Positions 4,028-62,687 of a stretch of DNA of 64,000 nt are shown here, in pieces (the first letter of the stretch is position 1; every line of letters starts with the position of its first letter). Location: NCBI GenBank assembly GCA_003226295.1, contig CP029803.1:986211-1050210 (forward strand), in the 5' to 3' direction. Position numbers and translations under genes: made by a program. Below the pieces are notes generated by a model. The model searched no databases and was not told where the DNA came from. It saw only the letters and a list, made by a program, of their open reading frames with translations. This DNA comes from Candidatus Moanabacter tarae. GTDB lineage: Bacteria; Verrucomicrobiota; Verrucomicrobiia; Opitutales; UBA2987.

Positions 4028-5170
4028 TTACAGGTAAATAGTCGAACCATCAGGTGCTCTGGGACCAGATCTTTCCCAGTGAATATAACCACCAGCCTTT
4101 ACTGCCTCCTCGTTAATTTCGACCCCCAATCCTGGACGATCAGGGCGTAGGTGAAGATACCCGTCTTTAGGTAAATACGGATCCTCCAGCCATGGATCTC
4201 GATCCGGCATGCAATATTCTAGAATCTTAAAATTAGGTGTTGCTGCTGCAAAATGAACATTCACAGCTGTCGCAAGAGGACCCATCGGGTTGTGAGGAGC
4301 CACAGTAACATAGTGTGCCTCCGCTATTGCAGCAATCTTCCGAAGTTCAAGCAATCCTCCACAAACGCAAACATCAGGTTGAATAATATCTACCCCATTT
4401 TGAGACATAAGATCCAGAAATTCAAAACGTGTATAAAGTGATTCCCCAGTGGCTAGCGGCACCTGCATTTGAGAACGAAGACTAGCCCATGCAGCCCGGT
4501 TTTCTGGTCTCAATGGCTCTTCGAAAAAATACGGATCGAATGGAGCTAAAGAATTTGCTAACTGAAGTGCTCTAACAGGCTCAAATATTTTGGCATGGGG
4601 ATCAAAGGCGAATTCCCATTCTTCGCCACAGTTATTTCGTAGCTCCTCGAAATATCGGGCCGCTGCATTACAAACCCTTCCCCATCGGTTTAAATTCGGA
4701 TCAAGCTGGAAAGGAGATGCTTTAAAGGCAGTAAACCCATATTCGGAATTCAACTTATGTGCTAAATCTGCTGTTCTCTTCGAATCTTCCCCTCCTATTC
4801 CTCGATAGACCCTAATACGATCGCGTACTGCACCACCAAGCAACATATAAACTGGTAACCCAGCAGCCTTTCCACTAATATCCCATAATGCATGGTCCAG
4901 TCCCGATATTGCAGCTAAGCCAATTGAACCTGGCGGAAATCGGAATTGCTGAAACAACTTTTGAATTATAAATTCTATTCTTCGAGGGTCCTCTCCCTTC
5001 ACCAATTCAAAAACATACTCCAAGGTCGGGACAATTGCCAAGTCGGGTCCAACTCCGTAACATTCCCCCCAACCGAAAATTCCCTGGTCCGTCCCCAGCT
5101 TAACAAGTACCCGTGACCGTATTCCACAATTTGTGACGTAGGTTTGGAGAGTAGTAATCTTCATATGCAA
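4028..5170 (-). CDS. Enolase-superfamily acid-sugar dehydratase, galactonate dehydratase-like
   Basis: Mandelate-racemase-group protein of 380 residues, expected to abstract the alpha proton of a sugar acid and eliminate water to give a 2-keto-3-deoxy acid. The capping domain is residues 1-120 and the barrel follows. Candidate metal ligands are D190, E217 (in FFEEP) and E243 (in TGES). General acid/base residues are H192 in the D-x-H arrangement seen in galactonate/gluconate dehydratases, and H293 in APHNP with D266 as its partner. Lys150 stands where the KxK motif usually lies, with no second Lys, also as in that subgroup. The exact sugar cannot be read from sequence. A second ATG six bases in (5164) gives the more usual MKIT start. 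It lies 116 bases after another enolase-superfamily gene on the same strand. Confidence 0.85.
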   Translation of the reverse strand: MHMKITTLQTYVTNCGIRSRVLVKLGTDQGIFGWGECYGVGPDLAIVPTLEYVFELVKGEDPRRIEFIIQKLFQQFRFPPGSIGLAAISGLDHALWDISGKAAGLPVYMLLGGAVRDRIRVYRGIGGEDSKRTADLAHKLNSEYGFTAFKASPFQLDPNLNRWGRVCNAAARYFEELRNNCGEEWEFAFDPHAKIFEPVRALQLANSLAPFDPYFFEEPLRPENRAAWASLRSQMQVPLATGESLYTRFEFLDLMSQNGVDIIQPDVCVCGGLLELRKIAAIAEAHYVTVAPHNPMGPLATAVNVHFAAATPNFKILEYCMPDRDPWLEDPYLPKDGYLHLRPDRPGLGVEINEEAVKAGGYIHWERSGPRAPDGSTIYL

Positions 5171-5286: not shown

Positions 5287-6378
5287 CTAACTGACCCGGT
5301 ATCTCTCAAGAGTTTCGTAACGAGGTTCAATTCCTATTCCTGGGACTTCTGGAGGGCTGACTGTTCCATCATCATTTAGAACAAGGGTTTCTTTATAAAT
5401 CTTGCCCCACATCGGATCCATGCGTTTTGGATAGAATTCTAGGATGAGGCCATTGGCGATAGCGCTCACTAGGTGGATATGGATTTCCTGCGGACCATGA
5501 GGAGCAATGTCAAGATCGTGTGCTTGGGAAATCGCAACCACTTTCATGAATTCGGTAACTCCACCAAGAATTACTGCATCTGGATTAAGAATGGGAACAC
5601 ACCCCATCGAAATAAGATCACGAAAACCATAGCGAGTATATTCGTTCTCTCCTGTTGCGAGTGGAATTGAAGTCTTCTCCGCAATTCTTTTGTGACCTTC
5701 TAAATCATCGGGTCCAATCGGTTCCTCAAACCAAAATGGTTCGTACTCCTCAACCCAACCTGCTAGCCGAACCGCTTCATACCATCGATATGAAGCATTC
5801 GCATCTATCATGAGGTCAATGTCTGGACCAATTGCATTCCGAACTGCTTTAACCCTCTCAACGTCTTCCTTAATAGGGAGAGCACCGATTTTCATCTTCA
5901 CTGCCTTCGCCCCGGACTCTACATGTTCAATCATTTCTTCCTGTAATTCTCTAAGACCTTTCCCTTCCTCGTAATAACCGCCTGCGATATAAGTAGGAAC
6001 ACTTCTTCTAAATCCACCCAACATCTTGTACAAAGGCATTCCTGCTATCTTCCCTCGAAGATCCCAAAGAGCGATATCAATGGCGCTAATACCCCGGGTG
6101 GTTAGACCGCGTCTTCCAGTTAATTTTGGAACCCACATCTTGTGCCACAACCTTTCGACATCGATTGGATCTTCACCAACTAGCAATTCTTTCATATAAT
6201 TAATGGTCGCTCCAACCACACCGCCTTTCTCTCCTCCTAAACCAATTCCCGTTGTCCCTTGATCTGTTTCAACAAAAACTAACCCAACTCCCGAATGGGT
6301 ATAGGTGTGCAATCCGTTCGATATAGGTTTCATCCGCGGCCAACGAAAACTCTCTACCCTAATGTCTGTGATCTTCAT
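5287..6378 (-). CDS. Enolase-superfamily acid-sugar dehydratase or racemase (mandelate racemase group)
   Basis: 363-residue enolase-superfamily protein with the full mandelate-racemase-type set: K161 and K163 in AVKMKIG, metal ligands D192 (DANASY), E218 (FEEP) and E244 (GENE), and catalytic H294 (APHG) with D267. This resembles L-rhamnonate or talarate/galactarate-type dehydratases, but the substrate is not determinable. It differs from its neighbour at 4028-5170 in using KxK rather than D-x-H chemistry, so the two probably act on different sugar acids or different stereocentres. Its ATG (6378-6376) is the left end of a perfect palindrome shared with the divergent dehydrogenase gene, which strongly suggests joint control. 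Few bases of 5' leader are possible unless transcription starts inside the palindrome or in the neighbouring gene. Confidence 0.86.
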   Translation of the reverse strand: MKITDIRVESFRWPRMKPISNGLHTYTHSGVGLVFVETDQGTTGIGLGGEKGGVVGATINYMKELLVGEDPIDVERLWHKMWVPKLTGRRGLTTRGISAIDIALWDLRGKIAGMPLYKMLGGFRRSVPTYIAGGYYEEGKGLRELQEEMIEHVESGAKAVKMKIGALPIKEDVERVKAVRNAIGPDIDLMIDANASYRWYEAVRLAGWVEEYEPFWFEEPIGPDDLEGHKRIAEKTSIPLATGENEYTRYGFRDLISMGCVPILNPDAVILGGVTEFMKVVAISQAHDLDIAPHGPQEIHIHLVSAIANGLILEFYPKRMDPMWGKIYKETLVLNDDGTVSPPEVPGIGIEPRYETLERYRVS

Positions 6379-6437
6379 AACCCATCTGTGACAAATAAAT
6401 CGACTGTGGTCGATTTATTTGTCACAGATGGGTTATG
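6376..6437. promoter_or_regulatory. Perfect 62-bp palindrome joining two divergent start codons
   Basis: Bases 6376-6404 and 6409-6437 are exact reverse complements: 29-bp arms, no mismatch, 4-base centre TGTG. The left end is the start codon of the minus-strand enolase-superfamily gene and the right end is the start codon of the plus-strand dehydrogenase gene, so both genes have identical 26-base leaders. The symmetry stops at once beyond the two ATGs. The leader contains AGATGGG close to each start as a possible ribosome site. It may be a shared operator/promoter or an mRNA hairpin. I cannot exclude an assembly artefact, but the different coding sequence on each side argues against a simple inverted chimera. 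Confidence 0.85.
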
Positions 6438-7403
6438 TCCTACAAATTCGTATTCCTTTCACCTTCAACTATAAGCACACAGAAATATTCCGAAGGAATG
6501 ATCCAGGCCGTTCCGAATATTGAGATTCATTTCTGTAACACAAGGGAGCAATCTCTGAAGCAAATAAGAGACGCATCTGCGTGTTTTGGAACTCTTGATC
6601 TTCAATTATTGGCGGAAGCGCGGGATCTAAAGTGGTTGGCTGCCCCTGCCGCTGGACCACCAAAGGGATTCTATTTTGAAGATCTAATTCAGAGCGATGT
6701 GGTTGTAACAAATTTTAGAGGAATTTATAACGACCACATTTCAATTCATATAATGGCATTTATTTTAGTTTTTGCCCGTCAAATGCATCTCTACTTCAGT
6801 GATCAATTCATAGGTCATTGGCGAAAAGGAGGTGAAACTAGTGATTCAATCTATCTACCTAATTCCACAGCTTTAATAATCGGTGCTGGAGGTATTGGTG
6901 GTGAAACTGCACGCCAGTGCAAGCACTTCGGAATGTCGGTTATTGCCGTTGATCCGCGAATACATGAGGCACCTGATGGAGTAGATAGGTTATACCGACC
7001 TGACAAACTTGACTCACTTCTTCCGGAGGCAGATTTTGTAATCCTAACCGCGCCACAGACTCCAGCAACTGAGGGTCTTTTTACATCGGCTAAGTTCGAA
7101 AAAATGAATAACAGCGCATATTTTATTAATATAGGCCGAGGATCGAACGTAATTTTGGCAGATCTGAATACTGCTCTAAGAAAAAATGAAATTGCAGGAG
7201 CAGCTCTCGATGTTTTCGAGGAAGAGCCTCTACCAATAGACCACCCATTATGGAAAGCTCCAAATTTTCTTATGACGCCGCATGTCGCAGCTTCCGGCCC
7301 TTTCCTCGAAGATCGAAGATTTGGGTTAATGATTGAAAATACTAAACGATTCTCGGAAGGAAAAGAACTACTGAATATAGTCGATAAGGCCAATTGGTTC
7401 TAG
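6435..7403 (+). CDS. D-isomer-specific 2-hydroxyacid dehydrogenase
   Basis: NAD(P)-dependent oxidoreductase of 322 residues that interconverts a 2-hydroxy acid and a 2-keto acid. The Rossmann nucleotide site is GAGGIGGE at about residue 150, followed by an acidic end of the second strand (VIAVD), which favours NAD over NADP. The catalytic triad is R235 (NIGRGS), E264 (FEEEPLP) and H283 (TPHVAA). It resembles the glyoxylate/hydroxypyruvate reductase branch, but the substrate is unknown. It is divergent from an acid-sugar dehydratase across a perfect palindrome, so it could act on a keto-acid product of the same pathway. A different, less similar member of the family is at 42121-43119. Confidence 0.9.
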   Translation: MSYKFVFLSPSTISTQKYSEGMIQAVPNIEIHFCNTREQSLKQIRDASACFGTLDLQLLAEARDLKWLAAPAAGPPKGFYFEDLIQSDVVVTNFRGIYNDHISIHIMAFILVFARQMHLYFSDQFIGHWRKGGETSDSIYLPNSTALIIGAGGIGGETARQCKHFGMSVIAVDPRIHEAPDGVDRLYRPDKLDSLLPEADFVILTAPQTPATEGLFTSAKFEKMNNSAYFINIGRGSNVILADLNTALRKNEIAGAALDVFEEEPLPIDHPLWKAPNFLMTPHVAASGPFLEDRRFGLMIENTKRFSEGKELLNIVDKANWF

Positions 7404-61463: not shown

Positions 61464-62687
61464 TTAACTCAAGATACTCCATCGGTCAGTAGCAGGATCG
61501 TAGGGAAATTTCTTTTCCGCATCCTCAACAATATCAACACCCAGCCCCGGCTTTTCGGGTACCAAAGCAAAACCATTTTCAATTCGGATCGGTTCAGTAA
61601 AGATTCCATCATCTCGAAAGGGGTTGTAGTGATTATTGTATTCCAGGATTTCCATTTTTGAACTAGACGCCGTAAAGTGAATATTAACTAACCAAGGAAA
61701 ACTAGACTGCCAATTATGGTTGACAACTAGTTTACTCCTCGCATGCGCCATGCGAGCGAGGTACCAAGCCTCCGTGAGGCCAACAAAGCTACAGTCAAAC
61801 TGGATTATATCATAGGCATCGCGGTCTATCCAGTCATTGAAATCATATCGTGTAACAAAAGTTTCGCTTCCAGCGATTTTGACAGAAGGTAAAAGCTGAC
61901 TAATTTCGATAGTTCTCTCAATTGCTTGGTTGACGTTCAGGGATTTTCCGCTTTCACAAATAATTTCACCATACTGATGTTGGCATGGCTCTTCCAACCA
62001 GAAAAACCGCAACTCTTCAAGGACAGGACAGAATTCTTTAGTTTCTGCGAATGATAAACCGCGTTCGTGCATAAGATCGAAATCCCATCCAACTGACTCC
62101 CGTAATTTGCGAAGGAAAGCAGCGTAAATTTCTACATTCATGAGTTCCCTGAAATTTTCGCCAAGACGAAACTTAAAGGAAGTAAACCCCTCTTCTTTGT
62201 ATTTAAGAGCCTCGTCAATTAGATCATCGGGTCGCCTCTTCCAGTCGTGCAACGTCCCGCAGCTGGCATAGTGCTTAACTTCTGGAGTTAGATCTTTGCT
62301 GTCACCCAGCAATCTATAAACTGGCTTGTTTTTAGCCTTACCAATTATATCCCAACAGGCATTTGTAACGCCGGCCCAAGCACAGGCTCGTCTAAAACTT
62401 TGGTGCGCAGGCTCGCGCAATCCAACATCAAACAGATTTTTTCCGATAATTTCCTGTTTGATGATTTTTTCCGTGTAGTTTTTAACAAACTGTCCGCCAC
62501 CGTAGTGTCCGGGAGGACCGATACCAACGATACCGACATCAGTGAAAATCTCAGTTACCATCTCGATTCCGCAACCCCACCAATATTTCTCAACAGGAAT
62601 TTGACACGAAAACAGACGTACTCGAACATCCGTAATCTTGATATTCTCTCGTTTTATTTCTTCAAGTGGATGATAACGCTTCTTCAT
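61464..62687 (-). CDS. Enolase-superfamily dehydratase, third paralog
   Basis: 407-residue enolase-superfamily protein. The capping domain is residues 15-130; the barrel carries K172 with R174 (FKFR, where KxK is more common), D204, E232 (LEEPC), E275 (GSETF), and D298 and H324 (VNHNW) as the acid/base dyad. This matches a mandelate-racemase-group dehydratase but not a well-known substrate. It is divergent from a DRE-TIM aldolase gene whose start is about 210 bases away, so a dehydratase/aldolase pair is a natural reading. Starts with MKKRYHPLEE before the usual IKITDVRV. Confidence 0.85.
   Translation of the reverse strand: MKKRYHPLEEIKRENIKITDVRVRLFSCQIPVEKYWWGCGIEMVTEIFTDVGIVGIGPPGHYGGGQFVKNYTEKIIKQEIIGKNLFDVGLREPAHQSFRRACAWAGVTNACWDIIGKAKNKPVYRLLGDSKDLTPEVKHYASCGTLHDWKRRPDDLIDEALKYKEEGFTSFKFRLGENFRELMNVEIYAAFLRKLRESVGWDFDLMHERGLSFAETKEFCPVLEELRFFWLEEPCQHQYGEIICESGKSLNVNQAIERTIEISQLLPSVKIAGSETFVTRYDFNDWIDRDAYDIIQFDCSFVGLTEAWYLARMAHARSKLVVNHNWQSSFPWLVNIHFTASSSKMEILEYNNHYNPFRDDGIFTEPIRIENGFALVPEKPGLGVDIVEDAEKKFPYDPATDRWSILS

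Follow-up and report, generated by a model that had tools for sequence, protein, structure and literature searches.

Dyad operators, for example of the TetR or GntR type, occur between divergently transcribed genes, and the usual account of shared regulation in such genes is a gradual tuning of sites. Bidirectional promoters, in which a single -10 element is shared and the transcription starts are most often 18 bp apart, with distances of 10 and 23 bp also common, are common in bacteria (PMC12825309). The perfecting of quasi-palindromes through template switching is documented in E. coli (PMC7202029), template switching has been proposed as a general origin of new perfect stems (PMC8794818), and a 4-nt spacer is the most frequent one among bacterial perfect inverted repeats (PMC13155455). 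In the window, which is the whole stretch of 64,000 nucleotides analysed here, the gap of 56 bp between two divergent ORFs is filled by a perfect palindrome, CATAACCCATCTGTGACAAATAAATCGAC-TGTG-GTCGATTTATTTGTCACAGATGGGTTATG, whose outermost three bases at either end are the start codons of the two ORFs (Table 1). Direct reading of the sequence bears out the exact 62-bp symmetry described in the original prediction, the arms being 100% complementary, and the ORFs begin at its ends as had been claimed. The 26-nt leader said to be common to both genes is likewise a fact. A template switch is expected to leave a perfect inverted repeat whose loop is short, and the palindrome, with arms of 29 bp and a loop of 4 nt, has this form.

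Table 1. Positions of the palindrome, its parts, the flanking genes and the related sites elsewhere in the genome
Feature	Position	Strand	Remarks
Perfect 62-bp palindrome	6376-6437	.	Covers all of the gap between the divergent genes, together with the start codon of each
Left arm, 29 bp	6376-6404	-	On the - strand, 26-nt leader and ATG of the enolase-superfamily gene
Loop TGTG	6405-6408	.	
Right arm, 29 bp	6409-6437	+	26-nt leader and ATG of the dehydrogenase gene
Enolase-superfamily gene (mandelate racemase/muconate lactonizing type, sugar-acid dehydratase-like)	5287-6378	-	363 aa; Pfam MR_MLE_N and MR_MLE_C
D-isomer-specific 2-hydroxyacid dehydrogenase gene	6435-7403	+	322 aa; Pfam 2-Hacid_dh_C
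Putative operator/promoter core, CTGTGACAAATAAATCGAC-TGTG-GTCGATTTATTTGTCACAG	6386-6427	.	Imperfect copy upstream of amidase gene
Imperfect core copy upstream of amidase gene	L208:1490-1531 (G000:C1 about 1156070-1156111)		PAPS-reductase-family gene alongside
20-bp-arm perfect palindrome with 3-nt loop, inside gltB	L136:4713-4755 (G000:C1 about 2534713-2534755)		Second longest in 1.262 Mb

Neither of the two flanking genes reaches an NCBIfam equivalog cut-off. The position of the enolase-superfamily ATG is kept in most of 13 orthologues (57-75% identity), of which the closest belongs to a Latescibacterota MAG and the others to Chloroflexota, a Poribacteria MAG, Paenibacillus and Alphaproteobacteria. 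The ATG of the dehydrogenase gene is the sole in-frame ATG/GTG/TTG start downstream of the preceding in-frame stop; its place at the end of the palindrome is plausible from the sequence, with support less firm than for the enolase start because the alignment of homologues begins only at about residue 12-21. A Shine-Dalgarno sequence is absent from the arm, and the signal is weak across the genome (22% of genes vs 14% of random positions), hence uninformative. Enolase-superfamily dehydratases yield 2-oxo acids and 2-hydroxyacid dehydrogenases reduce 2-oxo acids, and therefore a joint pathway for the two products is plausible from their enzyme classes. For a genome of 2.6 Mb, the numbers of matches to the enolase superfamily (about 25) and to the 2-hydroxyacid dehydrogenases (19) are high; matches to these families include 4028-5170, 5287-6378 and 61464-62687 in the window.

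The 13 enolase orthologues have different neighbours, with no divergent dehydrogenase beside the start, no related leader and no palindrome. A search of 388 genomes from the window's phylum gave no further copy of the enolase that passes 1e-90, and the top dehydrogenase homologues there are at 33-36% identity. A conserved gene pair was rejected as an explanation, as the pairing is not seen among the relatives compared. Within these genomes, the enolase-dehydrogenase pair appears to be specific to the source lineage, and the ancestral sequence at the locus is therefore beyond reach.

The scanned DNA comprises 1.262 Mb (48% of the genome), made up of the window and 60 further stretches across the contig. 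The longest exact inverted-repeat arms in it, with a loop of up to 30, are 29 (the present palindrome), 20, 15, 15 and 14 bp, and in two first-order Markov control sequences of equal size no arm is longer than 12. Of the 101 divergent gene pairs whose gaps measure 15-400 bp, the one with the palindrome is 94% self-complementary and the next best 40%, and no symmetry was found in the other 100 intergenic regions tested. The palindrome is far beyond chance, with about 3e-10 as our own estimate of its chance occurrence in the whole genome, and the view that such exact symmetry is uncommon holds good. That the palindrome is unique among the 101 divergent regions is what a rare event, rather than a general promoter design, would lead one to expect. 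An assembly or sequencing artefact could account for the perfect identity of the arms, but it is very unlikely, given that the genome is a single contig of 2,633,965 bases and 98% complete, and that the imperfect copy upstream of the amidase gene is independent support for the core sequence. Fold-back chimaeras duplicate long flanks, whereas the symmetry here ends exactly at two intact, unrelated genes. A palindrome with 14-bp arms (L078:5621-5656) lies where another ORF begins. One of its arms holds an internal ATG that may be the true start, so that a start codon may be in contact with a palindrome there too.

A search of the genome for the arm gave no full second copy; shorter patterns recovered only a partial, imperfect one upstream of the amidase gene. 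The core dyad query, AAATCGAC-N4-GTCGATTT, has a one-mismatch match at this intergenic position (G000:1156081). The site reads AGAAAAATCGAAGTCCGTCGATTTTTTTGTCACAG and is identical to one arm at 18/19 positions and to both arms at 30/38, whereas the best match of shuffled palindromes (n=300, 1.26 Mb) is 27. By hand count, its halves pair at 13 of the 19 positions, which makes it a quasi-palindrome, and the distance from the dyad centre to the ATG is 30.5 nt vs 28.5 nt for either window gene. A similar dyad at a similar distance from the start is what would be expected of a regulon operator, and it is found at this one site only. Because sequence, symmetry and spacing are alike upstream of a third gene, a regulatory core is the best reading, and the palindrome core is probably a genuine operator/promoter element that serves three genes or more. 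The shared operator/promoter that had been suggested for the divergent pair, although still putative, is thus supported by the amidase site. With just one convincing further site, the regulon would have to be a small one, or else chance may after all play a part.

No comparable dyad was found upstream of other enolase or dehydrogenase paralogues in the genome. Upstream of a peptidase M19 gene, in the interval that separates it from an enolase-superfamily paralogue, there is a half-site-like TTTATTTATCACAG (L212:1504-1517; G000:C1 about 1766938-1766954), with one mismatch in 14 and weaker than the amidase site. In 273 genomes of the order, the half site has 30 matches outside the source genome vs 13 in the reversed control, and most of those examined fall within genes. 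One other genus of the order has a conserved intergenic block of GATTTTTGTGTCACAG with a nearby GTGTGACAC (L220, L221 and L222, near 1501), which precedes genes of 445-481 aa and differs in arrangement from the palindrome core. It is possibly an unrelated regulatory site, and no kinship to the palindrome is claimed.

The locus resembles TetR- or GntR-type dyad operators: its short divergent gap holds a symmetric element, and another gene has a related site. It differs from them in lacking a recognisable regulator gene over about 6 kb to either side of the palindrome, and in that the arms far exceed what a dimer footprint needs. With the bidirectional bacterial promoters of Warman, Grainger and colleagues (PMC12825309) it has in common that DNA symmetry serves, or here would serve, divergent transcription, but those promoters share a -10 element, while the centre here, GACTGTGGTC, is not -10-like and the symmetry extends to the start codons. 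A consensus scan detected no sigma-70-like promoter in the palindrome region, other promoter types being outside its coverage.

These comparisons bear on the proposal that the whole perfect symmetry was selected, as an extended operator or a fully symmetric bidirectional promoter that gives equal expression of both genes. Operators of known kinds make do with far fewer paired positions than 29. The amidase site, if functional, manages with its 13/19 pairing, no other such divergent pair exists in the sampled half of the genome, and the centre of the palindrome is not an A+T-rich shared -10 element. Selection of the entire palindrome is therefore quite improbable, even though the symmetry extends as far as the two ATGs and the leaders are equal, the amidase gene has an imperfect relative of the core and bidirectional promoters are, as mentioned above, common in bacteria.

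Control of translation by an RNA hairpin is a very remote explanation of the symmetry. A transcript that came in from outside would form the 29-bp stem and so hide the AUG, which is indeed paired in the predicted stem (-46.9 kcal/mol). A transcript begun inside its own arm, however, carries half the stem only, there is no evidence of read-through, and no Rfam family scores above the gathering score. The Rfam matches obtained are far below that score and are to microRNA models, which match any long hairpin; an Rfam RNA was accordingly rejected. The shared translation control of the original prediction is thus possible for read-through transcripts only, which a stem burying the AUG could, according to the folding model, silence. 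An intrinsic terminator was also rejected, as a search of the region for a G+C-rich stem with a T run found none and the genes diverge. A mobile or repeated element of the MITE or REP kind was rejected because the genome has no second full copy and only the partial amidase site, and no plasmid or viral copy was found. In another genome of the same order (G033, L137:4672-4734) there is an inverted repeat with 24-bp arms, TGTAGGAGCAAACTTGTTCGCGAC, which resembles REP elements.

The gltB palindrome provides insight into how such symmetry may arise in this genome. Its left arm encodes the conserved L-E-(S/T)-P motif of relatives, retained here as L-D-T-P, whereas its right arm encodes E-Y-W-G-I in the source genome only and E-F-x-x-I or similar in relatives. 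The arms pair at 20/20 positions in the source genome vs 4-8/20 in nine relatives. Because conserved residues have been replaced and the relatives pair so poorly, one arm has apparently been overwritten with a mirror copy of its partner, leaving a template-switch-like footprint in coding sequence; an imperfect ancestor with one arm altered to match the other, as a template switch would require, is thus seen for gltB in the source genome. From this case we infer that the regulatory dyad shared by the enolase-superfamily and dehydrogenase genes became perfect in the same way. The likeness to the quasi-palindrome mutations of E. coli lacZ and thyA (PMC7202029) is that an imperfect inverted repeat is perfected by arm-to-arm copying, but those were studied as mutational hotspots, whereas here the leaders of two genes would be equalised. 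Template-switch RNA stems (PMC8794818) are similar in that a perfect hairpin comes from one event without intermediates, but they concern RNA genes with reconstructed ancestors, while the present site is a divergent control region with no known RNA function. The symmetry had been said to look selected or recently copied, and it is probably both, a regulatory core and its perfecting by a template switch, with gltB as an independent case.

It has to be considered whether the event was a pure mutational accident, in which one gene's leader and ATG came to lie next to the other through template switching or a small inverted duplication, with no shared regulator involved, and the similarity at the amidase gene is due to chance or to an old duplicated promoter. 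The gltB palindrome shows that events of this kind take place without a regulatory role too, and the region has no promoter match. Such an accident is nevertheless unlikely, since the amidase site beats the shuffled controls and has a similar spacing to the start codon.

The reading that we prefer, and regard as modestly probable, is a shared regulatory dyad that template switching has recently made perfect as far as the two start codons. At the middle of the palindrome, about 42 bp (CTGTGACAAAWAAATCGAC-N4-GTCGATTTWTTTGTCACAG) would form a dyad-symmetric operator and/or promoter core, which precedes the start codons of the divergent pair and of the amidase gene by an almost constant distance. 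The 56-bp gap would have started with an imperfect dyad, that is, a quasi-palindrome, and in a recent replication template switch one arm would have been copied in reverse complement over the other until the ATG was reached. The ATG, common to both genes, may have served as a short homology for switching back, and copying beyond it would have harmed a gene. The ending of the symmetry at the ATGs fits both a switch-back at the shared trinucleotide and damage by further copying. The outcome would be the same leader on both genes and probably the same operator and promoter in opposite directions. Protein binding, co-regulation, a single copying event and its direction are all points that we infer.

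If the core is an operator/promoter, one control would govern both genes, and these would read the core in opposite orientations. A further proposal, tentative and somewhat doubtful, is that one template switch gave a gene the mirror image of its divergent neighbour's entire operator, promoter, leader and start codon. If true, this would be a one-step route to co-regulated divergent pairs, a "promoter capture by inverted copying". A perfect mirror copy with a start codon at either end, together with the imperfect version elsewhere in the genome, suggests that one slip of replication can equalise two promoters.
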